From Flavihumibacter fluvii (GTDB lineage Bacteria > Bacteroidota > Bacteroidia > Chitinophagales > Chitinophagaceae), in contig NZ_CP092333.1 in the NCBI RefSeq assembly GCF_018595675.2, positions 4,736,001 through 4,800,000 on the forward strand: a DNA stretch of 64,000 nt, written 5' to 3'. Shown one piece after another: positions 23,765-55,997 of the stretch. The notes below the pieces were generated by a model. It did no database searches and was not told where the DNA came from. It was given only the letters and a program-made list of their open reading frames with translations. Numbering within the stretch: the stretch's first letter is position 1; the number at the start of each line of letters is the position of its first letter. The position numbers and the translations under genes were made by a program.

Positions 23765-24826
23765 TTAGATAAATAGTTTAAGCAGATAATAGGTAAGTGC
23801 TGCCAGTGCCGCGCTGACCGGAATGGTCAATATCCAGGCCCACAGGAGGTTAATTGTCACTCCCCATCTTACAGCTGATAGTCTTTTTGTAGCGCCAACG
23901 CCTATGATTGCACCGGTAATGGTGTGCGTAGTACTCACGGGTATACCCGCTGCTTCTGCAAGGTATAAGGTTGCCGCTCCGGCAGTTTCAGCAGCCACAC
24001 CTTCAAGCGGGGTTACTTTTGTAATTCGCGTACCCATGGTCTTCACGATTTTCCAACCACCACTTAAGGTACCGAGGGCAATAGCAGAGAAACTTGCCAC
24101 AGGGACCCACCAATAATCGTTAACAAAATGGGAAAACCGGTGACTTGCGTCCAATGAAGTATATGTAGTATTGCCGCTTTGCATTTCAACATAAATTACG
24201 GCAGCGCCTATAATTCCCATTACTTTTTGGGCATCATTACCGCCATGTCCGAGACTGAACATTGCCGACGAAACCAGTTGAAGCCTCCGGAACCATTTCT
24301 CAGCTTTATACGGCAAAACCTTCCTGCAAACATTTAATATAATTACCGTAATGATGTAAGCGATGATCATTCCAATAAATGGCGCCAGGAAAATAAAAAG
24401 GAAAGTGGGTATTACTTTTGCATAATTGATCACAGAATGACCATTTGCTTCCAACCCGCCTGCATGAGCAAGCGCTGCCCCAAGGAAACCACCCATTAAG
24501 GTATGGGAGGAGCTGGATGGAATCCCAAACCACCAGGTGAGGAGATTCCAGGCAATTGCTGCGATAAGTCCGGCAAAGACAACTTCAAGGTTGATAAAAT
24601 CTTCGTTCACCCATTTGGCGACAGTATTTCCTATCTTAAATTCACCGATCCAGTATTTGGAAATAAAAAAAGCAGCAAAATTAAATAATGCTGCCCATAA
24701 AACTGCCTGGAACGGGGTCAATACCTTTGTGGAAACTATTGTAGCGATTGAATTGGCAGCATCATGAAATCCGTTGATAAAATCGAAAACAAGTGCCAGA
24801 ATAATGATGATGACGAGAAAGGTCAT
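23765..24826 (-). CDS. pit: PiT-family inorganic phosphate transporter
   Basis: 353 aa low-affinity, metal-phosphate/proton symporter of the inner membrane. The two PiT signatures are seen as FDFINGFHDAANSIATIVST (residues about 14-33) and the later SLGHGGNDAQKVMGIIGAAV near 195. Helices elsewhere match the family, including GIPSSSSHTLMGG and the mirror copy GIPVSTTHTITGA, an internal inverted duplication typical of PiT. Lies 77 bases downstream of its DUF47 partner. A heptamer foldback occupies the space between them. Confidence 0.96.
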   Translation of the reverse strand: MTFLVIIIILALVFDFINGFHDAANSIATIVSTKVLTPFQAVLWAALFNFAAFFISKYWIGEFKIGNTVAKWVNEDFINLEVVFAGLIAAIAWNLLTWWFGIPSSSSHTLMGGFLGAALAHAGGLEANGHSVINYAKVIPTFLFIFLAPFIGMIIAYIITVIILNVCRKVLPYKAEKWFRRLQLVSSAMFSLGHGGNDAQKVMGIIGAAVIYVEMQSGNTTYTSLDASHRFSHFVNDYWWVPVASFSAIALGTLSGGWKIVKTMGTRITKVTPLEGVAAETAGAATLYLAEAAGIPVSTTHTITGAIIGVGATKRLSAVRWGVTINLLWAWILTIPVSAALAALTYYLLKLFI

Positions 24827-24903: not shown

Positions 24904-25551
24904 TTATGCGTATTTAATAATTATACTCTCGATTACATTCGCGGCATCCTCACATTTATCCGTCACGATTTCCATCACCTGGTAAATCTCCCTTTTCTTA
25001 ATCACTTCTTTTGCATCGGGTTCGGTTTCAAACAAGCGGTCGATACTGAGGTCGAAGATATCATCCGCCTGGTTTTCAATACTGTTCACCTTTACCAGTG
25101 CATCAGTAATCTTGCGCATATTCTTCATGTTACGCAATTCCTTAACAGCGTTACTGATTTGTTCAGAACCCTGTTCAATCAGGTCTGCCATTTTCTGGAT
25201 ACCCGGGTCATTCGGGTTGACCTTATAAAAATTGATCTTTTTGGCCGAAGCGAAAATATAATCACAGATATCATCCAATGAGCTGGCGAGGTAATGAATG
25301 TCTTCCCTGTCGAAGGGGGTAATGAAGTTTCTGCCCAATTCAGTAAATATTTTGTGGGTCAGTTCATCGTTAACATGTTCAAGGTCTTCCATTTTTGCAA
25401 TCAGTGCAGCCCTTTTATCATAATCGAACTCACTTACTACATCCTTCATAAGTCTGCCCATTTTTGCTACTGTATTGGCGACTTCCTCAAACAGGGAATA
25501 AAACACTTTATCCTTTGGGGTGAAAATTTTCAAAATGGAAGAAAGCGACAT
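24904..25551 (-). CDS. DUF47 (PhoU-like) partner of the Pit transporter
   Basis: 215 aa all-helical protein starting MSLSSILKIFTPKDKVFYSLFE at 25551. The frame is open to 25584, but a -7 box at 25573-25566 makes that start untranscribed. Visible features are the two PhoU-like three-helix bundles with conserved ExxxD metal-binding helices: MEDLEHVNDELTHKI near 55-70, SSLDDICDYIF near 90, and NSIENQADDIFD near 155. Known DUF47 proteins are encoded next to pit and probably gate it. Here pit follows directly, which supports that role. Confidence 0.92.
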   Translation of the reverse strand: MSLSSILKIFTPKDKVFYSLFEEVANTVAKMGRLMKDVVSEFDYDKRAALIAKMEDLEHVNDELTHKIFTELGRNFITPFDREDIHYLASSLDDICDYIFASAKKINFYKVNPNDPGIQKMADLIEQGSEQISNAVKELRNMKNMRKITDALVKVNSIENQADDIFDLSIDRLFETEPDAKEVIKKREIYQVMEIVTDKCEDAANVIESIIIKYA

Positions 25552-25565
25552 AAGTACATTTTGCG

Positions 25566-25573
25566 CAAAAATA
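25566..25573 (-). promoter_or_regulatory. -7 box TATTTTTG(CGC) for the DUF47-pit operon
   Basis: Perfect TAnnTTTG followed by CGC, 15 bases before the ATG at 25551. It implies a very short leader. Confidence 0.7.
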
Positions 25574-25608
25574 GCCTCTTTCAAGCCGGTAAACGGTCCC
25601 CTGGTTTT

Positions 25609-25630
25609 GATAATAATTTCTTAACACTGA
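25609..25630 (+). promoter_or_regulatory. Pho-box-like repeat pair between DUF47 gene and porin
   Basis: Two contiguous 11-mers, GATAATAATTT and CTTAACACTGA. They closely resemble the pair at 25693 (GGTAATAATTA, CTTAACAATCG). No phased -7 box is seen nearby on either strand, so it may act at a distance or on the divergent DUF47-pit promoter. Confidence 0.45.
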
Positions 25631-25692
25631 TGCTGAATAATGTCTTTTCATGGCCTGGATTGGCTATTTTGATGGCTGCCGGCTGTAGATTT

Positions 25693-25748
25693 GGTAATAA
25701 TTACTTAACAATCGCAAACTTACCAAGCAGCTATGCCTATTACCTTTG
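25693..25748 (+). promoter_or_regulatory. Pho-box pair and -7 box of the porin gene
   Basis: 11-mers GGTAATAATTA (25693) and CTTAACAATCG (25704) precede the -7 box TACCTTTG at 25741-25748, which is followed by CGC. The units start 48 and 37 bases before the -7 box, one base off the phase seen at the other Pho-box promoters. Confidence 0.6.
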
Positions 25749-25771
25749 CGCCCGGTTAACAATTAATTCAT

Positions 25772-27088
25772 ATGAAATTAATATTGGGAAAAAATAAGGT
25801 CCCACGGCTGATTTTTATCACCAGCTTTTTCCTGTTGTTTTCCCAGCATATCCGGGCCCAGTTCCTGATGGATATGATGGATACCTCAAAGGCTATGGGT
25901 AAGAATATGTTAGGCATCTACCAGAAATTCAACTTTATAAATATATCCGGGTACATACAACCCCAATTCCAGGTTATATCCGAAAAGGGCGCACATACCT
26001 ATGCTGGTCCCGACTTCCCGCCAGATGTGAACAACCGATTTACCATCAGGCGTGGACGGATAAAGTTTGACTACGCACATTTTAATAAAGATGAAATAGT
26101 GTCTTTCCAGTTTGCATTTCAATTTGATGGATCAGAAAGAGGTGTATTTGTCAGGGATATGTGGGGAAGGGTTTTTGAAAATAAATGGGAGGTCTTAGCC
26201 CTGGCTGCAGGTGTATTTGCCCGGCCTTTCGGCTATGAGGTAAACCTGAGTTCCGGAGACCGGGAATCACCGGAGCGAGGTAGGATGTCGCAAATCCTGA
26301 TGAAAACGGAAAGGGATATCGGCGCAATGGTGAGTTTTGAACCACGAATGCAAACAAACAAATATAATTGGTTGAAAGTAGATGCCGGATTTTTTAATGG
26401 CCAGGGGCTGACGGGGCCTGGTGAATATGATTCTTATAAGGATTTTATTACTCGGGCTGCAGTAAAACCGCTATCAATTATGCCTGGTGTTAAAATATCA
26501 GGTGGTCTTTCTTTACTGGCAGGCGGTTTCATGCAGGGGGGGCAATATATCTATACAATGGAGGGCAAGGGTAGCGGGTCAGGTTTTGTTGTTGATTCCA
26601 GTACAACCAATATTGGCGGTAAAGTACCAAGGAAGTATGCCGGTGCCGATATCCAATGGGAATTCAGACACCCCAAAAGTAAAACAGTGTTAAGAGCTGA
26701 ATACTGGCAGGGCATCCAGACTGCTTTGGCCAATTCCAGTGAAACTCCGGCTACATTAGTGACGGTTCCATTATTTACCAGGAATTTTAATGGCGCTTTC
26801 TTTTACTTATTACATCAGATGGGTATACACCAGCTGGGCTTGAAATTTGATTGGTATGATCCTAATACCAAAGTGAAGGGAAATGAAATTTCAAGCGTTA
26901 GCGGCAATTTCCATAGTGCAGATATCAAATACAGCACACTGGGTTTTGGGTACCTTAATTATTTAAATGATAACCTCAAACTGGTCCTCTGGTATGACCT
27001 GGTGAAAAATGAATCCACCCAACTTGATGGCTATACTCAGGACCTGCCGGATAATGTCCTTACCATCCGCCTTCAATTCAAATTTTAA
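25772..27088 (+). CDS. OprO/OprP-like outer-membrane porin, probably phosphate-linked
   Basis: 438 aa with an N-terminal signal peptide ending in IRAQ, then a beta-barrel of alternating hydrophobic strands. The N-terminal signature of the phosphate-selective porin family is recognisable: ISGYIQPQFQ, FTIRRGRIKFDYA, and SFQFAFQFDGSERGVFVRDMWG (in outline). The C-terminus ends LTIRLQFKF, a typical final strand with terminal Phe. Location beside DUF47/pit and a Pho-box promoter fits phosphate or pyrophosphate entry. Substrate is inferred. Its stop lies 2 bases before the Pho-box array of the next gene. Confidence 0.82.
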   Translation: MKLILGKNKVPRLIFITSFFLLFSQHIRAQFLMDMMDTSKAMGKNMLGIYQKFNFINISGYIQPQFQVISEKGAHTYAGPDFPPDVNNRFTIRRGRIKFDYAHFNKDEIVSFQFAFQFDGSERGVFVRDMWGRVFENKWEVLALAAGVFARPFGYEVNLSSGDRESPERGRMSQILMKTERDIGAMVSFEPRMQTNKYNWLKVDAGFFNGQGLTGPGEYDSYKDFITRAAVKPLSIMPGVKISGGLSLLAGGFMQGGQYIYTMEGKGSGSGFVVDSSTTNIGGKVPRKYAGADIQWEFRHPKSKTVLRAEYWQGIQTALANSSETPATLVTVPLFTRNFNGAFFYLLHQMGIHQLGLKFDWYDPNTKVKGNEISSVSGNFHSADIKYSTLGFGYLNYLNDNLKLVLWYDLVKNESTQLDGYTQDLPDNVLTIRLQFKF

Positions 27089-27090
27089 TT

Positions 27091-27169
27091 GGTAACATTC
27101 CGGCAACATGCCGGTTACAATTCGGTAACATCTCAATAACAGGGTCTTAACATTGGAAATTTACTTTTG
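27091..27169 (+). promoter_or_regulatory. six-unit Pho-box array and -7 box of the TonB receptor
   Basis: Six contiguous 11-mers: GGTAACATTCC, GGCAACATGCC, GGTTACAATTC, GGTAACATCTC, AATAACAGGGT, CTTAACATTGG (27091-27156). Five bases later comes the -7 box TACTTTTG (27162-27169). The unit core is the same as the TT(A/C/T)ACA core bound by PhoP of Bacillus subtilis, with the same 11-bp period. Confidence 0.75.
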
Positions 27170-27191
27170 CGGCAAATAAACGCTGTTAGTT

Positions 27192-29984
27192 GTGCCTAAA
27201 AAGAATTTTGTCATTTTGATGATTTTATTGGTAGCTGGTTTCCAATCTTTCTCACAAGCTACCGCTACAATGAATGGAAAGGTAATCAACAGCCGGAATG
27301 AACCTGTTCCCGGCGCCACCATAATTATTGAAGGAACAACAAGAAAGGTGGCCGCAAACGTTGAAGGCAGGTTTTCATTTACCCTTGAAGCAGGAAGGAA
27401 ATATACACTGATCGTGAGTAGTGCCGGGTATAATACAAAGTCGCTGGAAGATGTTGAGGTTAAGGCAGGTGATGACAATAATGTAACTGTAGTACTTGAA
27501 ACAAAATCAGAATTAGGTGAGGTGGTGGTGCGTTCATCCGTAAGGAAAGAAACCACCAGTGCAATGATTAACCTGCAAAGAAACAATACAGCCGTTTCCA
27601 GTGGTATAGCCGCAGACCTTATCAGGAGAACACCAGACCGAACAACTGGTGAAGTACTGAAGCGTGTAAGTGGTGCCAGTATCCAGGATAATAAATTCGT
27701 GGTTGTAAGGGGACTTAGTGACCGTTACAATGCGGCATTCATCAATAATGCCCAATTGCCCTCTTCAGAACCCGACAGGAAAGCCTTCTCTTTTGATGTG
27801 ATCCCGGCAGATATGATTGATAATATCATTATCAATAAAACAGCCACACCTGAATTAACCGGAGAATTTGCCGGAGGTTTAATACAGGTACAAACAAAAG
27901 ATATTCCTACAAAAAACTTCATGTCCATTGGTTTCCAACTGGGTTATAATTCCAATTCAACATTTAAGAATTTCACCAGCAATGAAAGGACCAGTACGGA
28001 TTGGTTAGGTTTTGATGACGGCACCCGGAAATTTCCCGCTGGATTTCCAGCAACACCGCAGGAATACCGCTCCTTATCAACTAATCAGCAAATTGAAAAG
28101 TCACAGTTATTCCGGGATGATGTATACGCACAACAGTCGAAAAGTGCTTTACCGATAATGACCTATAACTTTTCGTATGGCTCAGCCCGGACATTAAAGA
28201 ACGATGCAAAACTGGGATTTATAGCATCAGTTGTATACAGGAACGCCATGATGAAATATTCTGTTGACCGCAAGTTCAGCCAATCAGATGGACTGCCGAT
28301 ATTCAGCCTCACAGATGAGCAGAATAAATACCAGACAAATATCGGAGCTCTGATCAATATCACTTATTCGCAGAAAAAGAATAAAATCTCCTTCAAGAGC
28401 ATCTATAACAGGTTTTACGAGGACAATTATTTTGTGCGTAATGGATTTAATACCAGCCGCAACCAGGATATCAATTTCCTGTCGTCCGTCCTGAACCAAC
28501 GTAACTTCTTTAGCAGTCAGTTGGAGGGCGATCATCAATTGGGCCTTGCAAATATGAAATTCCGGTGGAATACAGGTTATTCTCTGGTCACAAGAGATCA
28601 GCCCGACCTAAGAACACAACAATACACCAGGTCCGAAGGCAGTAATATTTCCATTATCGATCTTGATGACTCCAGGCGATTCTGGTCAGACCTTCAGGAT
28701 CATACGATGACTGCTGCCGGCGCTTTCACACTGCCATTCGAGCTATTCAGCCAGAAACAGAATTTTAAGTTTGGCGGCTCAACCATAGTCAGGTTCCGCG
28801 ATTTCCAATCACGCATCTTCCGATATAAAGAGGCATCTCAGGCTAACTTTGATGAAAATCTCAGTACGTTACCATATGACCAGGTATTTAATCGCAATAA
28901 TTTTAGCACCAACGGATTTGTTGCTGATGATTTTACCAGTAATTCCGATGAATATTTCGGGATATCTGCGATTAATTCCGGATTTGCCATGTTTGATAAT
29001 AAGCTCAATGAAAAAGTTCGCCTGGTTTGGGGTGTAAGGGTGGAGTTTTTTGAACAATACCTCACTTCAAAAGACGCAACGGCAAAGCGTTTAAATATCA
29101 ATACAGAAACCTGGGATGTATTACCTTCTGTAAACCTGACCTATTCAATAAATACAAAGAATAACCTGCGTTTTGCAGCATTTCAAACTGTCGCCAGGCC
29201 TGAGTTCAGGGAGATTGCACCTTTCCAGTTCTTTGATTACGAATCTAACTATGGTGTTTCAGGGAATCCAGACCTGAAGCGTACTAAAATACTAAATCTC
29301 GACCTGCGTTATGAGATTTATCCGGCCGCAGGTGAAGTATTTACAGTTGGTGCGTTTTATAAAAACTTTAAGGATCCTATTGAGTTTAGGCTTGATCCGG
29401 GGTCAAATGCAGATCGTCGCCTCTATTTTTATCAGAATGCATCTAATGCAAATACGTATGGAGCAGAAGTAGAAATCAGAAAAAACCTTGATTTCCTGAG
29501 CAAAGGGAATAAGTTGTTGAGCAATATGACAGCATTTGGAAACTTCACTTACTTATTTTCAGATGTTAGTTTTCCGGATGCATCCTCCTCTGGCCAATCT
29601 ATAAGTTCCAACCGACCAATTCAGGGTCAATCACCTTACCTGATCAATGCGGGCATTCAATATTCCTCTGACAAATTATTTAACATGACGTTGTTGTATA
29701 ATAAGATCGGCCCACGCCTGGCCCTTGTAGGTAATAGTGAATTCCCTGATATATATGAAAGGCCACGTAACCTGCTTGATTTCCAGGTGTCAAAACGCAT
29801 CTTAAAGAAACAAGGCCAGTTAAAACTTACATTCTCTGACATCCTCAATAACCCAATTTACCTGTATGAAGATGTAGGTGGCAGTAAAGAATTTACCAAT
29901 GGAGATCGTTTATTCAGTTCCTACCAGCCAGGTACCACAATTTCCATAGGATTTACCTATGATTTCAAGTTAAAAAATAATTAA
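27192..29984 (+). CDS. TonB-dependent receptor with CarboxypepD-reg-like N-domain
   Basis: 930 aa outer-membrane active transporter. It has a signal peptide (VILMILLVAGFQSFSQ), then a carboxypeptidase-regulatory-like beta-sandwich (GKVINSRNEPVPGATIIIEG), a plug domain (RRTPDRTTGEVLKRVSGASIQ; VVRGLSDRYNAAFINNAQLP) and a long beta-barrel ending SIGFTYDFKLKNN. The start is the GTG at 27192; an ATG at 27219 would lose the positive charges of the signal peptide. A Pho-box array drives it and a lipoprotein gene follows 42 bases later, so it probably imports a phosphorus compound. The pair is not a SusCD pair: the lipoprotein is a beta-helix, not SusD-like. Confidence 0.88.
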   Translation: MPKKNFVILMILLVAGFQSFSQATATMNGKVINSRNEPVPGATIIIEGTTRKVAANVEGRFSFTLEAGRKYTLIVSSAGYNTKSLEDVEVKAGDDNNVTVVLETKSELGEVVVRSSVRKETTSAMINLQRNNTAVSSGIAADLIRRTPDRTTGEVLKRVSGASIQDNKFVVVRGLSDRYNAAFINNAQLPSSEPDRKAFSFDVIPADMIDNIIINKTATPELTGEFAGGLIQVQTKDIPTKNFMSIGFQLGYNSNSTFKNFTSNERTSTDWLGFDDGTRKFPAGFPATPQEYRSLSTNQQIEKSQLFRDDVYAQQSKSALPIMTYNFSYGSARTLKNDAKLGFIASVVYRNAMMKYSVDRKFSQSDGLPIFSLTDEQNKYQTNIGALINITYSQKKNKISFKSIYNRFYEDNYFVRNGFNTSRNQDINFLSSVLNQRNFFSSQLEGDHQLGLANMKFRWNTGYSLVTRDQPDLRTQQYTRSEGSNISIIDLDDSRRFWSDLQDHTMTAAGAFTLPFELFSQKQNFKFGGSTIVRFRDFQSRIFRYKEASQANFDENLSTLPYDQVFNRNNFSTNGFVADDFTSNSDEYFGISAINSGFAMFDNKLNEKVRLVWGVRVEFFEQYLTSKDATAKRLNINTETWDVLPSVNLTYSINTKNNLRFAAFQTVARPEFREIAPFQFFDYESNYGVSGNPDLKRTKILNLDLRYEIYPAAGEVFTVGAFYKNFKDPIEFRLDPGSNADRRLYFYQNASNANTYGAEVEIRKNLDFLSKGNKLLSNMTAFGNFTYLFSDVSFPDASSSGQSISSNRPIQGQSPYLINAGIQYSSDKLFNMTLLYNKIGPRLALVGNSEFPDIYERPRNLLDFQVSKRILKKQGQLKLTFSDILNNPIYLYEDVGGSKEFTNGDRLFSSYQPGTTISIGFTYDFKLKNN

Positions 29985-30026
29985 CCCTATCCCAAACAAA
30001 TACACTAAATATTTAAACATAATAAG

Positions 30027-31379
30027 ATGAAGTTGGTAAAACAAATCGCAGTAGTGGTTATCAGTGCATTCGCCATCACTTCCTGCATAAAAGTTGAAGT
30101 GGGTGATGAGATCATTAATAATGGCGGCACAACAGATTCAACCTCTAAAGTGTTGAACGGTACAATTGATCAAAGCAGAACACTCACGAAAGGCACCTGG
30201 ATATTAAAAGGCTATGTTTATGTGAATAATGGTGCTGTGCTGACAATTGAACCCGGGACAATTATAAAAAGTGATGTGGCTGAAAAGGGGGCATTAATCA
30301 TAGAAAGAGGGTCTAAACTTATTGCAGATGGTCGTTCAAGCGAACCAATTGTGTTTACATCCGGAAAACCTTCAGGCGAACGCGCTCCTGGTGATTGGGG
30401 TGGTATTATATTGTTAGGAAATGCTCCTACAAACCGGCCAACATCACCGGCGCCAATTATTGAAGGCGGAATAAACCGGCCGTATGGCGGGAAAACGGCT
30501 AATGATAACAGTGGCATCCTTCGCTATGTCAGAATCGAGTTTTCAGGAATTGCAGCTGAACCAGGATCTGAAATTAACGGACTAACACTTGGCGGAGTTG
30601 GCTCAGGAACAATTATTGAAAATGTGCAGGTATCATTTGGCGGTGATGATGCCTACGAATTTTTTGGTGGAACAGTAAATTGTAAAAACCTGATTGCTTT
30701 GGGAACAATGGACGATGATTTTGATTTTGACTTTGGATATACCGGAAAAATCCAATATGCAGTATCACTGCGTGATAAACCTGCTGACACCGATCAGGCT
30801 AATGGTATTGAATGTGATAATGATGGTACAGCCAGCCTTACAGAACCTTTTACACGTCCGGAATTATCAAACTTTACACTTATAGGACCCTACGATACAA
30901 CGGGTTCAAGTTCCAACCATGGATTTAGTAACCGTTGGAGAAGGGCTACCCGCTTTTCTTTGGTGAATTCATTGTTGATGGGCCACAGAAAAGCCGGATT
31001 TTCCATGGAAAGTGCTGCAACTGCCCAGGCATATAAGGATGGCTTGTCGATATTCAAGAATAATATTGTAGCAGTGTATGCAAAACCTTACAATGTAGCT
31101 GCTGAGGCTGAAACGATTTTTACAGCAGCCCAGGTGCAGGCAAAAGCAGAATCAGAAGGCAACCGCACATTAGCTGCCCGTGAAGATGTTCAGCTGACAG
31201 ATCCGTTTAATTTCACGTCACCAAATTTCCTTCCTTTACCGGGTTCCCCGGCTTTAACCGGCGCAAGCTTTACGGGTCTTGATCCTTTCTTTACGCCAAC
31301 CACCTTTATTGGAGCATTTGGTACCAGCAACTGGGCGCAGGGTTGGGCCAGCTTTAATCCAAAAACAAATGCCTACTAG
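30027..31379 (+). CDS. surface lipoprotein with right-handed beta-helix
   Basis: 450 aa. A lipobox FAITSC puts the lipidated Cys at residue 20. After a Thr/Ser linker, repeated short strands suggest a pectate-lyase-like beta-helix: GAVLTIEPGTIIKSDVA, GALIIERGSKLIADG, GDWGGIILLGNAP, SGILRYVRIEFSG, GTIIENVQVSFGG. The phrase DDFDFDFGYTG is acidic and may bind metal. Bacteroidota genomes often carry this family next to a TonB receptor. Being co-transcribed with a Pho-box-driven receptor suggests it captures or processes a phosphorus-containing substrate; this is inference. Confidence 0.75.
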   Translation: MKLVKQIAVVVISAFAITSCIKVEVGDEIINNGGTTDSTSKVLNGTIDQSRTLTKGTWILKGYVYVNNGAVLTIEPGTIIKSDVAEKGALIIERGSKLIADGRSSEPIVFTSGKPSGERAPGDWGGIILLGNAPTNRPTSPAPIIEGGINRPYGGKTANDNSGILRYVRIEFSGIAAEPGSEINGLTLGGVGSGTIIENVQVSFGGDDAYEFFGGTVNCKNLIALGTMDDDFDFDFGYTGKIQYAVSLRDKPADTDQANGIECDNDGTASLTEPFTRPELSNFTLIGPYDTTGSSSNHGFSNRWRRATRFSLVNSLLMGHRKAGFSMESAATAQAYKDGLSIFKNNIVAVYAKPYNVAAEAETIFTAAQVQAKAESEGNRTLAAREDVQLTDPFNFTSPNFLPLPGSPALTGASFTGLDPFFTPTTFIGAFGTSNWAQGWASFNPKTNAY

Positions 31380-31399
31380 GCGTATTAAGAATATATTTC

Positions 31400-31433
31400 A
31401 AATCCGTTTCCTTAAATGAAACGGATTTTTTTT
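31400..31433 (+). terminator. terminator of the receptor/lipoprotein operon
   Basis: Perfect 11-bp stem AAATCCGTTTC / GAAACGGATTT with a 7-base loop and a run of T, 20 bases after the lipoprotein stop. Confidence 0.9.
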
Positions 31434-31441
31434 CACATTTC

Positions 31442-31487
31442 GGTAATCAATCCGAAACAACTACTTAACATGCCACATAGATCTTTG
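31442..31487 (+). promoter_or_regulatory. Pho-box array and -7-like box of a short transcript
   Basis: 11-mers GGTAATCAATC, CGAAACAACTA and CTTAACATGCC (31442-31474). Five bases later comes GATCTTTG (31480-31487), one mismatch from TAnnTTTG. The spacing is identical to that at 27091 and 55218. Confidence 0.6.
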
Positions 31488-31492
31488 TAAAA

Positions 31493-31575
31493 GTTTACGT
31501 CAGTTGTTTGTGTAATTAACGTAGTATTTTCTCATGCAGTACAAGCCAGTGTATCTCTATACATTGGCTTTTTTT
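31493..31575 (+). ncRNA. candidate Pho-controlled small RNA (about 80 nt)
   Basis: The predicted start lies 5-7 bases after the -7-like box. The predicted end is a strong intrinsic terminator at 31543-31575. No annotated gene sits between promoter and terminator. The start of a small reading frame (31534) overlaps the terminator stem, so a coding alternative exists. Both ends are predicted from sequence alone. Confidence 0.4.
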
Positions 31576-31662
31576 GTCTTTATATCGGGATTAATTATAC
31601 GCCTGGTAATCTTCAGGCAACTCGGAACAACGCAGTGGTCAGTTGCCTTGTATATGGCTTAG
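31534..31662 (+). CDS. possible 42-aa membrane peptide (alternative to the sRNA)
   Basis: ATG at 31534 opens 42 codons beginning MQYKPVYLYTLAFFVFISG, a good single TM helix followed by Arg-rich IIRLVIFRQ. Stop TAG at 31660. A one-base shift near 31647 would continue in another hydrophobic frame to 31757, so this could also be a frameshifted remnant of a two-TM protein. The terminator hairpin at 31543 lies inside codons 4-13, which argues against full-length transcription. Low confidence. Confidence 0.25.
   Translation: MQYKPVYLYTLAFFVFISGLIIRLVIFRQLGTTQWSVALYMA
31543..31575 (+). terminator. strong terminator within the 31.5 kb leader
   Basis: 12-bp stem AAGCCAGTGTAT / ATACATTGGCTT (one G-U pair), 4-base loop CTCT, then seven T. 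It is not directly downstream of any annotated gene. Confidence 0.85.
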
Positions 31663-32067
31663 TTGCTTTCAGTTTGTATGCCTTTCTGTTTTTATTCCGG
31701 AAACCCTTCAGTGCTTGCTTTTTTTTAAGAGTTTGCCATAGTCGGGCTTCACTATAGAACCATACCTGGCAGCTTATAAGTGCTGAATAAATAGCGAATA
31801 AATTCTGAAGTATTAAATTCATTGCTGAAATGAAAAGGATAAGCCATGGAAGGCCGTCGAATGACCGGCCAGATCAGCGTAGCACCCGAAGTTTTATTAA
31901 TGGTTCCAGGGTGACAAAGTCTTTCGAGGCATTTGTTATAGGTTACTGGTTGAGACCGCAATACTGGATGTCTTTCATAAAAAGTGCTTTATGGCTCAGC
32001 AAGAATGTTCTCCAGATAAACATTTCCAGGTTGAACATTAAACTTCTCCTGTCAATACTGGTGGTAT
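31663..32067. other. about 400 bases with no recognisable gene
   Basis: Short frames exist on both strands, for example 31830-32069 on the plus strand and 31752-31961 on the minus strand, but they lack family signal, ribosome-binding context or coherent composition. Probably decayed coding sequence or leader/trailer space between the lipoprotein operon and phoR. Confidence 0.5.
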
Positions 32068-32103
32068 AAAAAGCCAGCCATACAAAGTTGTATCCCTCTG
32101 GGC
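32068..32103 (-). terminator. probable terminator of phoB-phoR
   Basis: On the minus strand a two-part stem: CCAG/CTGG outside, ATACAA/TTGTAT inside with a 2-base loop. It is followed by CTTTTTA, 18 bases after the phoR stop. Confidence 0.55.
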
Positions 32104-32121
32104 ATTTAGCAGGAAATAATT

Positions 32122-33171
32122 TTACTCCTTACTAGACGCCAGGGTAAAACCAATAGTGGTACCTACATCTGGCTTACTTCGAACGTGCATGGATTCACCA
32201 TGTGCTTCGATGATATGTTTGCAGATGGCGAGTCCGAGTCCGGTACCGCCCTTATCGCGGCTTCTTGCTTTATCAGTACGGTAAAACCTTTCAAAAATCC
32301 TGGGCAGGTGTTCTTCATCAATACCAATTCCATCGTCACTGATTTCAATCAATACTTTAAATTCATCTGTATTATAGATACTAGCTACAATAGTGCCACC
32401 AGGTTTCCCATATTTTGACCCATTTTCAATGATGTTGATCAATACCTGGCGGATCTTTTCCTTGTCAGCAAAAACATAAACGGGCGATTCACAACCCTTT
32501 TTTATGGAAGCCACAATCTGTTTCTGGTTCAGCTTCAATGAAAGCGATTCAATCACTTCCCTGACCAGGTCCTGGATCACAAAATACTGCCGGTAGAGGA
32601 CCTGCTCGCCGGTTTCAAGCCGCGATATTTCATCAAGGTCATTCATCAGGTTTACGAGCCGGTCTATATTACGGCTGGTATTTTCCAGGAATTTTTTACG
32701 GACATCCGGATTGTCCATGGCACCGCTTAATAAAGTATCCACATAACCCTGAATAGCGAAAATAGGGGTCTTGAATTCATGGGCCAGGTTTTGCAAGAAT
32801 TCCTTCCGGTATTCTTCGTTTTTGCGCAATACTTCAATTTCACCCTGACGCTGCTCGGCCCATTTTTCTACATCTTCCTTGACCTCGTCGATACTTTTTT
32901 GCGGAATAATGTATTTATTATAAAATTCCTCCCTTTTTGATGCTTTGGTCTGGTAAATAAATTTATAAATGAGTTTGATCCTTCTGTAAATAAATTGCTG
33001 CAAAAAATAAAAGATCAGCAAATAGGCTACCAGCAATAAAACAAGGAAGGAAGAAATTGCAATGACCCATGACTTTACCAGGATCAGGTTAGCTAACCCA
33101 ACCAGCGATGATATGGCGATTGCGAGTACTAAAGATACCTGGCTAGGTGAAAGGTTTTTAAAGTTAAACAT
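32122..33171 (-). CDS. phoR: PhoR-like sensor histidine kinase
   Basis: 349 aa from the ATG at 33171 (MFNFKNLSPSQ). A GTG at 33231 would overlap the regulator gene and is less likely. Two adjacent TM helices (about 10-28 and 33-55) leave almost no periplasmic domain, as in PhoR. Then comes a cytoplasmic linker, HisKA with the H-box NLAHEFKTPIFAIQGYVD (about 150), and HATPase with N-box IIENGSKYGKPGG, G1 DDGIGIDEEHLPRIFERFYR and G2 GGTGLGLAICKHIIEAHG. Partner of the upstream response regulator, 34 bases away. Confidence 0.88.
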   Translation of the reverse strand: MFNFKNLSPSQVSLVLAIAISSLVGLANLILVKSWVIAISSFLVLLLVAYLLIFYFLQQFIYRRIKLIYKFIYQTKASKREEFYNKYIIPQKSIDEVKEDVEKWAEQRQGEIEVLRKNEEYRKEFLQNLAHEFKTPIFAIQGYVDTLLSGAMDNPDVRKKFLENTSRNIDRLVNLMNDLDEISRLETGEQVLYRQYFVIQDLVREVIESLSLKLNQKQIVASIKKGCESPVYVFADKEKIRQVLINIIENGSKYGKPGGTIVASIYNTDEFKVLIEISDDGIGIDEEHLPRIFERFYRTDKARSRDKGGTGLGLAICKHIIEAHGESMHVRSKPDVGTTIGFTLASSKE

Positions 33172-33205
33172 GGTTATGCTAATATAACCGAAACGGGTCA
33201 ATCGG

Positions 33206-33892
33206 TCAGAGGTCGAATTTATAGCCGACACCTTTTACTGTAGTAATACAATCCAGGCCGAGTTTCTGCCTGATTTTCCGGATATGCACATCAATTGTCC
33301 GGTCACCAACTATAACATCATTTCCCCATACCTGGTTCAGAATTTCATTCCGAAGGAAAACTCGTCCTGGCCTTGAAGCCAGCAGGTATAATAATTCAAA
33401 TTCCTTTTTAGCCAAAATTCGTTCTTCGTCATCAATGGTAACAATAAATTTCACGGGGTCGATCACCATATTGTCTATTAGTAAAATGCCGTCAGAAGCG
33501 TTTTCCTTTTTCTTGATACGGCGAAACAGGGCATTTACCCGGCTTAGTAATAATTTTGGACTAATTGGCTTGTTGACATAATCATCAGCGCCTGTATCTA
33601 ATCCTTTCAACTGGGAAGATTCATCACTAAGTGCTGTCAGGAATATGATCAGTGTATCTTTAAATTGTGGTTGGGTGCGTAAAATCTCGCAAACTTCCAC
33701 TCCGGTCTTTTTCGGCATCATGATGTCGAGAATGATCAGGTCGGGTTTCACCTGTTTGGCCCGCATAAGGGCTTCATCACCATCCCGGGCTGTATAGACC
33801 TCGTAGCCTTCCCCTTGAAGATTGTATTGGATAATCTCCAGTATATCTGGCTCATCGTCTGCAATTAGGATCTTTTTGCCTTTTGTATCCAT
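33206..33892 (-). CDS. phoB: PhoB-like winged-helix response regulator
   Basis: 228 aa from the ATG at 33892. Receiver domain residues 1-120: acidic pocket ADDEPDI, phospho-acceptor Asp in LIILDIMMPKKTG (about 55), Thr in FLTALSD and Lys in DDYVNKPIS. The C-terminal OmpR/PhoB winged helix has LAKKEFELLYLLASRPGRVF, the recognition helix VGDRTIDVHIRKIRQKLG and the wing KGVGYKF. Its own promoter carries Pho-box units on the minus strand, so autoregulation is likely. Naming as phoB rests on the domain set plus the phosphate-gene context. Confidence 0.88.
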   Translation of the reverse strand: MDTKGKKILIADDEPDILEIIQYNLQGEGYEVYTARDGDEALMRAKQVKPDLIILDIMMPKKTGVEVCEILRTQPQFKDTLIIFLTALSDESSQLKGLDTGADDYVNKPISPKLLLSRVNALFRRIKKKENASDGILLIDNMVIDPVKFIVTIDDEERILAKKEFELLYLLASRPGRVFLRNEILNQVWGNDVIVGDRTIDVHIRKIRQKLGLDCITTVKGVGYKFDL

Positions 33893-33908
33893 TAACAATT
33901 TCTTTATA

Positions 33909-33993
33909 CAAAGTTAACCACCCGATCTAACCCATCAATTTTCAACCGATTATGAAATTGTTAAGGGTCTACATACGTTATCACAATGTTATG
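33909..33993 (-). promoter_or_regulatory. Pho-box units and -7 box of phoB
   Basis: Minus strand: CATAACATTGT, GATAACGTATG (33993-33972), then after 6 bases CTTAACAATTT, CATAATCGGTT (33965-33944). The -7 box is TAACTTTG at 33916-33909. The inner pair starts 49 and 38 bases upstream of the -7 box, the same phase as in the 27091 and 55218 arrays. Confidence 0.65.
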
Positions 33994-34037
33994 ACGTTCT
34001 TTCTATTCTGTGTACTTTTATTGTAAGGCGCATATCT

Positions 34038-36239
34038 ATGAATAAACTATTTCCTTTTGTCGTTTTGGTGCTTTTAGCCCAATTCCTGAATGCACAAACT
34101 GCTGCCCCGATGTATTCCATTGACCGCGGCAGGTTGATTTTCCACGAAAATATTGACAAGGAACAGAAAAAACTCTATACCCAGCCTGGTTCCTATATCA
34201 AGGGTTACATTCCCATTACCAAGGACGAAGCTTTTAACGGACAGGTGAAATATGCTGTCCTGGAACAGGTAGATGAACTACAGCAAAACATTGAACTGGA
34301 CAGCGCCCTGAAGGATAATGAAAAAAAGAAGTACCTGAAAGGTTTGGAGATCATGGTGCGTCAAATTGGCCAGGGCACCAGGTCCCGTACTTTTTCCGCA
34401 GGATTGGCACCGGAAATGGTGAAAAGTTTTGAGAAATCGGTTGAGCTCGATCGCCAGAATAAAGGGATTGATGTGGTTGTTGCTGCCCAGCACTATTGGG
34501 TGGGCAAGACCCTGGTTGACTGTTTCACTTATCCTGAAAATATAGGGGTTCCAGCCAGTAAGGAGATATTGACACTTAAATACCTGAAACTCTATCCGGA
34601 AAAGACCATGCCTTTCCTGAAGACAAATATTTCTTATCCGAAGCGGGATAGCCTGATTGCTGCCGAAGCGCGCAGGGAACCCAGGAAAGTGTATGATTAT
34701 GCGGCGGCCAATGATGCCCTCGCCCGCTATATTCGCAACCACCCCGATTCAGTGGTGAAAGTTATTGCTGAAATGGCATCCAGCCGGAGCGGACAATTAT
34801 ATTTCCCTTTTATTGACGATATATACAGGGGTAAAATGACTTTTGAATCGATTGATAAGGTTAAGGATAATAACCTTGAATATTACCGCCTGATGGTGAA
34901 AACAAGAATGCAACATACGTCAAGGATGTTGCAGAAAGATACCCCCATGGAGCGTAAAGCACTGGTAGAGCGCATGGAAAACAAAGCCCGCCAGTTTTAT
35001 ATCAGCCAGATCAACGGATTGCATAATTCCCCCGATCCGGTAAGGTTTAAAGTGCTGGACCCTTTGGCACCGCATGAACTGTACTATCTCTGTGTCCTGG
35101 GCGAAGATGAAATTTATACATCTAGTTACCGTGGTGTATTCAAGCGGATCATACAGAAACTAAAGGGAACCCCTACAGATAGTTTATTCATGACCATGAA
35201 CTTCGACTATTTCCGGAAGTTTATCAAGATGGCGGCTGCCTATAATGAATTGGATACTTTGCTGAAGCTGATGCCCGATTCAAATGCCACAGTGCTGATG
35301 AAATCATTCATGTTTGGCCTTGAAAAAACCACCACTTTAAACACCGTGGAAGATGCTGTTGACGTAGCGGATGCCTATAGCAGTATTTTTGAAAAGAATA
35401 AAGCATTGGCCGGAAGGATGATGGAAGAAGCCCGCTGGAACTATGAACGTTGCCAGAAGAATGGCGATCCAAATGGCCAGAAAGTATATTTTATCGAAAA
35501 ATCACTGTTTGAATCTGCTGATTCCACCAATAAAACGGATATCTCCAGGTTACTGGGTATCCCGCCTGTGTACCAGGTTCCTTATGATCGCCTGATTGAC
35601 TCTGCCGGAAGAATTATCCAGCAGGTGTTATTCTATGGTGATGAAGACAAAGACGGCCAGAATTCCTACAGTAATTTCATGACCCTTTTCAAGAGCAAGG
35701 CAGACTGGGCGATCACCGATAATCCCGATTTTGTAACGATCAAGTCTACTAAAGGCAAGCCGGTGTGGATATTCGCGAACAAACCCTTGTATGGTGAGGA
35801 TGATCCCGATACAAAAGCCCAGGCCAAACTGAAAGAGTATTTGGATAAAAACGGCCTGGAGCCAACGATCTATATCCACCGCGGGCACAGTTATCATGTG
35901 AAGTCTTCGCTCGAGCAAATCACACCTTCCGCAAGAATCGTGATCCTGGGTTCCTGTGGCGGCTATAATAACCTCAATGAAGTACTAAGTATAAGTGCAG
36001 ATGCCCATATCATTTCATCCAAACAAATTGGTACACGTACGGTCAATGAGCCTATCTTAAATTCCATCAATACCAGTTTGCGGAGCGGCAAGGACATTGA
36101 TTGGATCCCCATGTGGGGAGAATTGAGCAAACAATTTACCGGGGAAAGCAAGGAACGTTTCGATGATTATATACCACCGTACAAGAATTTGGGGGCAATT
36201 TTCATCAAGGCTTATCGGGGAGTAGAGCAAGAACAATAA
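34038..36239 (+). CDS. large secreted protein with caspase-like C-terminal motifs
   Basis: 733 aa with a signal peptide ending FLNAQ. Residues about 25-560 are mostly helical and not assigned to a family. The last 170 residues contain hydrophobic strand then His-Gly (PTIYIHRGHSYH, about 615) and, some 25 residues on, hydrophobic strand then Cys (ARIVILGSCGGYNN, about 640). This order and spacing resemble the His/Cys dyad of clan CD peptidases (caspase, gingipain, CHAT). Catalytic activity is inferred, not shown. Divergent from phoB, with TACTTTTA at 34013-34020 as a possible -7 box. The ABC exporter follows 18 bases later. Confidence 0.6.
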   Translation: MNKLFPFVVLVLLAQFLNAQTAAPMYSIDRGRLIFHENIDKEQKKLYTQPGSYIKGYIPITKDEAFNGQVKYAVLEQVDELQQNIELDSALKDNEKKKYLKGLEIMVRQIGQGTRSRTFSAGLAPEMVKSFEKSVELDRQNKGIDVVVAAQHYWVGKTLVDCFTYPENIGVPASKEILTLKYLKLYPEKTMPFLKTNISYPKRDSLIAAEARREPRKVYDYAAANDALARYIRNHPDSVVKVIAEMASSRSGQLYFPFIDDIYRGKMTFESIDKVKDNNLEYYRLMVKTRMQHTSRMLQKDTPMERKALVERMENKARQFYISQINGLHNSPDPVRFKVLDPLAPHELYYLCVLGEDEIYTSSYRGVFKRIIQKLKGTPTDSLFMTMNFDYFRKFIKMAAAYNELDTLLKLMPDSNATVLMKSFMFGLEKTTTLNTVEDAVDVADAYSSIFEKNKALAGRMMEEARWNYERCQKNGDPNGQKVYFIEKSLFESADSTNKTDISRLLGIPPVYQVPYDRLIDSAGRIIQQVLFYGDEDKDGQNSYSNFMTLFKSKADWAITDNPDFVTIKSTKGKPVWIFANKPLYGEDDPDTKAQAKLKEYLDKNGLEPTIYIHRGHSYHVKSSLEQITPSARIVILGSCGGYNNLNEVLSISADAHIISSKQIGTRTVNEPILNSINTSLRSGKDIDWIPMWGELSKQFTGESKERFDDYIPPYKNLGAIFIKAYRGVEQEQ

Positions 36240-55217: not shown

Positions 55218-55285
55218 CGTAACAATTTGGTAATACTGGGGTAATATAGCGGTAATCTTTCGATAACATAGGGTAGATAGTTTTG
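55218..55285 (+). promoter_or_regulatory. five-unit Pho-box array and -7 box TAGTTTTG(CGC)
   Basis: Five contiguous 11-mers: CGTAACAATTT, GGTAATACTGG, GGTAATATAGC, GGTAATCTTTC, GATAACATAGG (55218-55272). Five bases later comes TAGTTTTG (55278-55285), and the ATG is at 55290. Geometry is the same as at 27091, about 28 kb away. Confidence 0.7.
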
Positions 55286-55289
55286 CGCT

Positions 55290-55997
55290 ATGTTGAAAAA
55301 TCTCCTGTTTATGCTGCTCCTTATGCCAATGAGTTTGGTTGCGCAGCGATCTATTAAATGGAAGGGATTGCATTTGAATAACCTTGATAAGCAAGGAAGA
55401 AAGCAAGGCGAATGGCTGTTCTTTGATAAGCAAGGCAATGTTTTGATGGAGTGTAGCTTTCAAAATGATGAAGTTTCAGGTCCAAGGGTATTTTTCAACA
55501 AGGGCGATACCAGCCTGATCAGGTTTCAGCCAAAAGACAGTCTTGAACATTTCATCTATTATTATAAAGGTCAGCCATTAAACGGTGTTTTTGTATCCAG
55601 CACCAATAAGTTTCGCATCGAGCTGGAAAAAATCCCGGAAGGATTTAATAATGCAGATATCGCAGAGCTTAAAAGGCAATACGCCATTAAAATAGAACCG
55701 GTGTATATGTTTGCCACCCAGGCGCTGGTAGAATATTTTAGTGCGGCTTATTATAAATCCAATACCATTCCCAATTGGAACCATAACTTTGTCATTACCA
55801 TCAATGCATCGGGAAAGGTGACCAACGTAGAATGGGAGAAGAAAGATGAGCTGTGGTCAGCAAATATAGAACATGAAGTGTTTGAGATGTTCTATGGTAT
55901 GGGCCGCTGGCAACCATTCTTCGATACCTGGCAAACCAAAGAAATTAAGATCACGATGTCATTAGGTGCAGATTTAGAAGCAATCACAGCACGATGA
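55290..55997 (+). CDS. secreted MORN/TonB-C-like protein under a Pho-box promoter
   Basis: 235 aa. Signal peptide (MLKNLLFMLLLMPMSLVAQ). Residues 20-75 look like MORN-2 repeats (NLDKQGRKQGEWLFFDKQG, DEVSGPRVFFNKG). The C-terminal part (FVITINASGKVTNVEW ... MGRWQPFFDTW) resembles the C-terminal domain of TonB-like proteins. No family assignment is certain. The start lies 4 bases after the -7 box, implying an almost leaderless mRNA. Overlaps the HIT gene by 4 bases, so that gene would share its control. Confidence 0.72.
   Translation: MLKNLLFMLLLMPMSLVAQRSIKWKGLHLNNLDKQGRKQGEWLFFDKQGNVLMECSFQNDEVSGPRVFFNKGDTSLIRFQPKDSLEHFIYYYKGQPLNGVFVSSTNKFRIELEKIPEGFNNADIAELKRQYAIKIEPVYMFATQALVEYFSAAYYKSNTIPNWNHNFVITINASGKVTNVEWEKKDELWSANIEHEVFEMFYGMGRWQPFFDTWQTKEIKITMSLGADLEAITAR

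Follow-up and report, generated by a model that had tools for sequence, protein, structure and literature searches.

The window analysed here, a stretch of 64,000 nucleotides taken at its full length, carries six adjoining 11-bp direct repeats immediately upstream of a TonB-dependent receptor gene, and this array is very probably a Pho box: a promoter-activating series of tandem, head-to-tail half-sites for phosphorylated PhoB. The units (27091–27156, plus strand: GGTAACATTCC, GGCAACATGCC, GGTTACAATTC, GGTAACATCTC, AATAACAGGGT and CTTAACATTGG) keep the core TAACA exactly in four of six cases and with one change in the other two. The last of them starts 16 bp before the −7 box of a housekeeping promoter (TACTTTTG, 27162–27169, plus strand), which itself begins 71 bp downstream of the first unit's start and has the form TAnnTTTG given for the flavobacterial sigma-A box at −12 to −5 (PMC9723704, in excerpt). 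A sequence-only reading of this DNA had described six contiguous 11-mers with a TAACA core upstream of a TAnnTTTG box, and that description holds.

On the minus strand, ahead of the array, stand a PHO4-family phosphate transporter of the Pit type (23765–24826) and a PhoU_div (DUF47) protein (24904–25584), both assigned by Pfam/NCBIfam models; on the plus strand follow an outer-membrane porin-like protein in the position of OprP (25772–27088; no Pfam match at E ≤ 0.001), the TonB-dependent receptor (CarboxypepD_reg and Plug domains, 27192–29984) and a predicted secreted lipoprotein, FII (30027–31379; no Pfam or NCBIfam match at E ≤ 0.001), the last two being counterparts, by locus content, of Fjoh_0545 and Fjoh_0546. 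A search of viral contigs with the FII protein returned two loci. Back on the minus strand, the window encodes both members of the cognate pair for a Pho box: a PhoR-type sensor kinase (32122–33231), for which the PnpS, WalK and PhoR models score best, all below their cut-offs, and a PhoB response regulator (33206–33898), for which TIGR02154 and NF053854 are the best models, both under their curated cut-offs (TIGR02154, the best NCBIfam model, reaches 227.8 bits against 296.2). The order GalE, PiT, PhoU_div, porin, array, receptor, FII, PhoR, PhoB, peptidase recurs, whole or in part, in relatives of the same family.

Companion arrays claimed at 55218, 31442, 25693 and, on the minus strand, 33944 are all present, and the unit-to-box distances agree with those first given: 71 bp at 27091, 60 at 55218, 38 at 31442, 48 at 25693, and 38 and 49 in the minus-strand set. 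Two units precede the porin gene (25693–25714, plus strand; −7 box TACCTTTG at 25741–25748), 1 bp off the usual phase that is shared by the first-unit offsets of 71, 60 and 38 bp in three promoters of the window; arrays directly after PhoU_div occur in three further loci (L245, L254 and L286). Two pairs of units precede phoB (33944–33993, minus strand). The near pair stands 38 and 49 bp before the box TAACTTTG (33916–33909, minus strand), while the far pair (33993–33972), absent from the earlier reading and read directly off the sequence, lies 66 and 77 bp from that box, half a turn out of phase. Five units at 55218–55272 (plus strand; box TAGTTTTG at 55278–55285) stand before a predicted secreted protein (55290–55997), and three more, at 31442, lead into a predicted short transcript discussed below.

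We measured these repeats against shuffled sequence and against spacings other than 11 bp. The top six-unit score in the window, 56.1 bits, belongs to the 27091 array, which is itself among the 18 source promoters of the unit matrix; 60 first-order Markov shuffles gave at most 1.4 bits. Three-unit scores reached 31.8 bits, as against no more than 23.3 in the shuffles, and two-unit scores were nearly equal (21.7 and 21.3). With the 27091 promoter masked, the window still holds six unit pairs at spacing 11 and four at spacing 22; between 5 and 30, no other spacing has more than one, and reversing the matrix leaves three at spacing 11 in the same masked sequence. Across the organism's own genome, a three-unit pattern allowing up to three mismatches occurs in eight places, five of them within the 27091 and 55218 arrays, as compared with two for the reversed pattern. 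A strict pattern of two units plus box occurs once in that genome, at the window array, and in 149 genomes of the class it is found at 13 places in 11 genomes, with one place for its reverse.

Arrays of this kind are conserved at the same gene in relatives. The receptor was matched in 56 of 79 family genomes, and among the 30 receptor loci returned and read, the window's own included, an 11-bp array lies upstream in 18 (17 of 29 when the window's own is set aside), an array being called where its score was reached by at most 1 of 100 shuffles. The simple scan saw no clear array at the other 12 of these 30 genes; a wider matrix scan placed arrays before the receptor, or in the gap between receptor and FII, in L251, L252, L291, L292, L294 and L295. 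The array promoters hold three to eight units each, and their 88 units give the matrix [GC][GT]TAA[CT]A[TA]T[GT][CG]. A downstream TTTGC is present in 17 of the 18, and in 16 of those 17 the phase is 8 mod 11, a fixed position relative to the downstream box in which the units take the place of a −35/−33 element, as a Pho box does. Once the source promoters are masked, 365 kb of sequence from 25 family loci contain 27 unit pairs at spacing 11 and 22 at spacing 22, with 0–6 at any other spacing between 5 and 30, and the reversed matrix finds six and two; this masked test supersedes an unmasked one that included the source promoters (62 and 44; reversed, 13 and 5). By these masked counts the elements are tandem direct repeats of 11-bp period, the arrangement expected of a Pho box.

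Contiguous units whose number varies between relatives by whole units could in principle be plain tandem duplications, a minisatellite of no regulatory use, and one class match (L098) does sit within a long run of 11-mers. Yet the units differ in their spacers, across genera both TAACA and the phase relative to the −7 box are kept, and the class-wide enrichment at phosphate genes described next speaks against a minisatellite as well, so we consider this explanation scarcely credible.

Enrichment near phosphate genes had been put forward as a test of the Pho-box reading, and it was run with a model (R1) of three units, spacer and box, built from the receptor promoters of 15 relatives with the window excluded. 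In the organism's own 5-Mb genome, R1 finds six places at E ≤ 10: the 55218 array ranks first (E 2.9e-5), the 27091 array second (E 0.0015) and a promoter directly before pstS-pstC third (E 0.28, not significant alone). The genes behind this third promoter are a PstS-family gene, pstC and, at a distance of 2.6 kb, pstB, the last two scoring above their family cut-offs. Of the remaining places, one falls in the 55218 array again, in another stretch of it, and two have no obvious phosphate genes beside them, one of these lying about 220 bp before a SusC-type receptor. The first-ranked array of the genome thus precedes the predicted secreted protein at 55290–55997, which has no known family (no Pfam or NCBIfam match at E ≤ 0.001) and is present in only 3 of 98 family genomes; of its same-genus orthologues, that in L336 keeps the upstream array, and none was seen upstream in L337.

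Among 149 genomes of the class, R1 gives 86 matches at E ≤ 0.05 in 57 genomes where about 7 would be expected, the E-values being rough by a factor of about 5; the other 92 genomes hold no match at that threshold. Outside the window's genome lie 84 matches, all of which we read; one of them, L051, is a promoter used in training. An open reading frame begins within 300 bp at 76 of them, making 75 distinct frames, and 25 of the 75 belong to five phosphate families: eight PhoU_div, seven PstS (TIGR00975/TIGR02136), five Porin_O_P, three PhoB and two Na_Pi_cotrans. At a few such genes per genome of about 3,500, well under one would be expected in 75. The arrays accordingly lie upstream of phosphate-acquisition genes, as befits a Pho box; the controls were the reversed patterns and these downstream gene counts, which stood in for a reversed model. 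The other 50 frames fall outside the five families, 13 of the 75 carry a TonB plug, and AA_kinase, RimK and NamZ genes are also on the class list.

Several class matches drew attention for other reasons. In L054, L064, L069, L092 and L114, arrays precede small secreted proteins of 96–115 aa that resemble single carboxypeptidase-regulatory-like domains and may form a new member of the Pho regulon; two of the five were checked, and matched, weakly, nothing beyond the first part of the SusC model. DUF5690-like membrane proteins follow arrays in L089 and L245 (from about 10860) and might, at a guess from sequence resemblance, be phosphate-ester transporters. In L098 the Pho-like array runs on into its long series of 11-bp units (ATTACAATCGT-like), either an expanded array or a minisatellite.

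A published locus to set beside the window is that of Flavobacterium johnsoniae, whose phoBR region (Fjoh_0541–0549) shares with it OprP, PhoR, PhoB, the TonB receptor and the FII lipoprotein (PMC8115612). Upon phosphate depletion, the fold-change column of Table 1 in that paper (log2FC according to its text) gives 8.02 for Fjoh_0545, 9.91 for Fjoh_0546, 3.06 for PhoB, 0.76 for PhoR and −1.3 for OprP, so that the OprP homologue Fjoh_0542 was not induced (PMC8115612, in excerpt). The paper has 95 transcripts induced by low phosphate at log2FC > 4, and it gives no binding site, the words 'motif', 'promoter' and 'Pho box' being used not once in the main text (PMC8115612). F. johnsoniae itself is absent from the 80 loci listed by our genome scan, and F. 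anhuiense, F. tyrosinilyticum, F. defluvii and F. saccharophilum served as stand-ins. In these four, R1 gives 40 matches at E ≤ 3, of which 30 were read; they include PhoU_div (two genomes), Porin_O_P (three) and the receptor (two), and PhoR adjoins the porin and PhoB the receptor, as in the published locus. The promoter of the Fjoh_0542 relatives scores with R1 despite the non-induction of Fjoh_0542. Four further matches lie in an apparent terminator hairpin before a rimK/Zn-protease gene and three lie before dapF, and are therefore taken as false positives at this threshold.

Taken together, these patterns point to a mechanism in which the arrays would be operators of the PhoB encoded at 33206. 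With a half-site of about [GC][GT]TAA[CT]A[TA]T[GT][CG] and an 11-bp period, the six units at 27091 would seat three PhoB dimers. The gene-proximal unit, starting 16 bp before TAnnTTTG, would cover about −28 to −18 and the next one the −33 region; from these positions, PhoB~P would replace the −33 contact and recruit RNA polymerase at low phosphate, switching on an outer-membrane pair for phosphorus scavenging, the TonB receptor and the FII lipoprotein. Related arrays would give the same control to the porin gene, to phoBR itself, to the 55290 gene and the small RNA, and, outside the window, to pstS. E. coli PhoB takes over the −35 contact, and the layout here is likewise that of an activator doing so. 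For that protein, 11-nt units and contact with the sigma subunit have been described (PMC4415409, in excerpt).

OmpR-family regulators commonly bind tandem half-sites, which leaves room for a different member of the OmpR/PhoB family, an ArcA- or MtrA-like paralogue, to bind the repeats, the link to PhoB being one of co-regulation or neighbourhood only. The closest solved relative of the window's regulator, by sequence, is indeed MtrA, and the motif of Riemerella PhoP resembles that of E. coli ArcA (PMC9603813, in excerpt). Against such a paralogue, the matches cluster before genes for PstS, PhoU_div and phosphate porins and before phoB itself, they adjoin phoBR in Flavobacterium, and an array precedes phoB in the window; we therefore hold the paralogue to be improbable and PhoB very probably to be the regulator that would act at these sites.

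The window's units can be compared with known Pho boxes. The E. coli box has the core CTGTCAT in two or more 11-nt direct repeats, whereas the arrays here have three to eight units, a TAnnTTTG partner box and a core of TAA[CT]A rather than TGTCA, so that the 88-unit matrix does not contain the E. coli-type core. The PhoP box of B. subtilis is TT(A/C/T)ACA with a spacer of about 5 bp, and its core (TTAACA) and period are very similar to those of the window; it differs in phylum and promoter type, and the units here have G for the core's first T in half of cases and T in place of the core C in 30%. The sequence-only reading knew of no described Bacteroidota consensus of this form, a statement that needs correcting on account of Riemerella anatipestifer, a Bacteroidota species. 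Its PhoP, a pho-type regulator, has a DAP-seq motif whose most conserved part, TTTAACA, shares the core of the window's units; an EMSA was made on a 35-nt stretch before phoPR, and the excerpted account, which compares the motif to that of ArcA, gives no 11-bp arrays, no phase with a −7 box and no phosphate regulon (PMC9603813). The pstC promoter is a target of PhoB in Bacteroides fragilis, the excerpted text naming no site (PMC3547664). A word search of the open-access literature listed no Bacteroidota Pho box of this form except the Riemerella motif. New, then, are the unit matrix, the geometry in which the last unit starts 16 bp before TAnnTTTG, the reach across families and a conserved, predicted small-RNA gene driven by a Pho array, and this small RNA is a more novel part than the array.

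Bacteroidota play a major part in the turnover of organic phosphorus in soil, sea and gut, yet the papers seen take their phosphate regulon from expression lists and define no operator array for it. With a unit matrix of fixed promoter geometry, the regulon becomes readable from sequence in many families and direct targets in published data can more easily be told from indirect ones; the geometry also shows how an activator may work with a TAnnTTTG promoter.

The array at 31442–31474 (plus strand), three units of which the middle one at 31453 (CGAAACAACTA) is poor at 0.3 bits, is followed by a −7 box (GATCTTTG, 31480–31487, plus strand) but by no long open reading frame. Instead, the segment TTTTCTCATGCAG lies about 40 nt past the box (31527–31539) and is succeeded by a terminator hairpin (31545–31568) and seven Ts, which together outline a predicted small RNA gene at 31492–31575 (plus strand), its start placed from the −7 box. 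The stretch folds with z = −4.6, largely owing to the terminator, and no Rfam family reached its gathering score in the window from 25000 to 36000 or in nine related loci. We suggest, and think it on balance somewhat the better supposition, that the Pho regulon of Bacteroidota has among its members a conserved small RNA of about 80–110 nt, activated by PhoB from a Pho-array promoter of its own, which could repress translation of mRNAs.

The same elements lie downstream of FII in 10 relatives, two of which (L286 and L288) were fetched because an exact search found the segment there, making 11 of 25 FII-bearing loci (24 loci plus the window); in many relatives the predicted small RNA stands beside the receptor–FII–phoBR locus. 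TTTCTCATG is exact in nine of these eleven small-RNA loci and has altered letters in L292 and L302, and in all eleven a Pho-like unit can be seen by eye whose end lies 5 bp upstream of a TAnnTTTG-like box, most poorly in L249 and L301. In the terminator hairpin, seven of eight pairs show changes on both sides and 97.6% of cells are paired, in an alignment (A8) that was fitted to the structure and whose counts lean towards it.

Wider searches used covariance models. Early MAFFT alignments (A3, A4 and A5) misregistered the hairpins, and model R2 was made from four loci that align unshifted; R3, built from R2's alignment, holds the segment and terminator and no promoter. Over 147 family genomes, R3 matched 123 at E ≤ 0.05, many of the weaker matches being other elements. 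We read 30 R3 loci, eight of them training loci, of which seven reach an in-phase array-and-box score of 16. The same score is reached by an in-phase Pho array at 11 of the 22 non-training loci (eight genera, some closely alike) and by 0.8% of 2,000 random positions in family loci, the cut of 16 having been chosen after the scores were seen. The 11 loci without an array have the segment or a relative of it together with a terminator; in several of them these come immediately behind the stop codon of an apparent outer-membrane protein gene. At E ≤ 5e-4 in the 149 class genomes, R3 gave 12 matches in seven genomes, the window's own and 11 others; ten of these 11 were inspected (all except L348) and have no in-phase Pho array, and as five of those ten are outside the window's family, a small RNA with the segment was not found there.

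Some candidates were set aside along the way. An exact-pattern search for TTTTCTCATGCA matched 135 of 195 family genomes and was commoner than its reversed control; these matches lend no support to the small RNA, for among 30 loci read most look coding (FSHA-type peptides, for example), and the covariance-model route was used in its stead. R2 matches were dropped in L246, L248 and L299, where a terminator comes close after the FII stop; in L254 and L298 (4884), which hold another element with no in-phase array seen; and, as weaker, in L249 (424), L251, L253, L294, L298 (4465) and L301 (4342).

What such an RNA might do is suggested by its conserved segment, UUUCUCAUG, whose reverse complement, CAUGAGAAA, is a start-codon context. 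The small RNA could therefore repress translation of a set of mRNAs at low phosphate; if the segment is a seed, the proteins of genes beginning CATGAGAAA would be affected. A duplex-energy search for targets in the window gave no convincing one, and the sole CATGAGAA there is the small RNA's own antisense. That the segment recurs before terminators in other transcripts of the family, at the 3′ ends of apparent outer-membrane protein genes, suggests a shared seed class. If borne out, this would be a phosphate-controlled small RNA in Bacteroidota, of which the open-access word search listed none.

Rather than acting in trans, the 31442 transcript might be a leader subject to attenuation, or what is left of a gene leader. 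Two observations favour this: beyond the terminator in L245 lies a frame resembling a DUF5690 protein, and in the window a 42-codon frame starts at the ATG within TTTTCTCATGCAG. Against a leader, the downstream sequence is not the same from one relative to the next: L249 and L250 have a frame on the opposite strand there, and the window has nothing clear. In the loci compared, the peptides that would start at the ATG are unlike one another, and the terminator is kept with covariation; a leader is to our mind rather unlikely. With array, box-like sequence and terminator present in the window and ten relatives, the predicted transcript has the promoter of its own, the intrinsic terminator and the want of a conserved coding frame that characterize a small RNA, and it is as a small RNA that we prefer to read it.

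Related elements were seen apart from this locus. TTTCTCATG with a terminator and no Pho units occurs at G000:C1:3277183-3277246 (L347) and in L312, L316, L326, L327 and L333; several of these loci come directly after the stop of an apparent outer-membrane protein gene, in the manner of a 3′-end element, perhaps with one shared seed. A further element, TTTTCTCATA(A)GCAGTT(A/G)GTTTTGGTT or close to it, followed by a terminator, lies at G000:C1:3214928-3214978 (L345) and in L344, L346, L330 and L334, and had no Rfam match in the three loci tested (L345, L344 and L334). Finally, in L073, from another family, an in-phase array and box (site 1501–1542, with some 90 nt beyond it) lead into a short stretch and a strong terminator, and a frame as long as 60 codons is absent within 300 bp. 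A second Pho-driven small RNA, unlike the first in sequence, may be encoded here.
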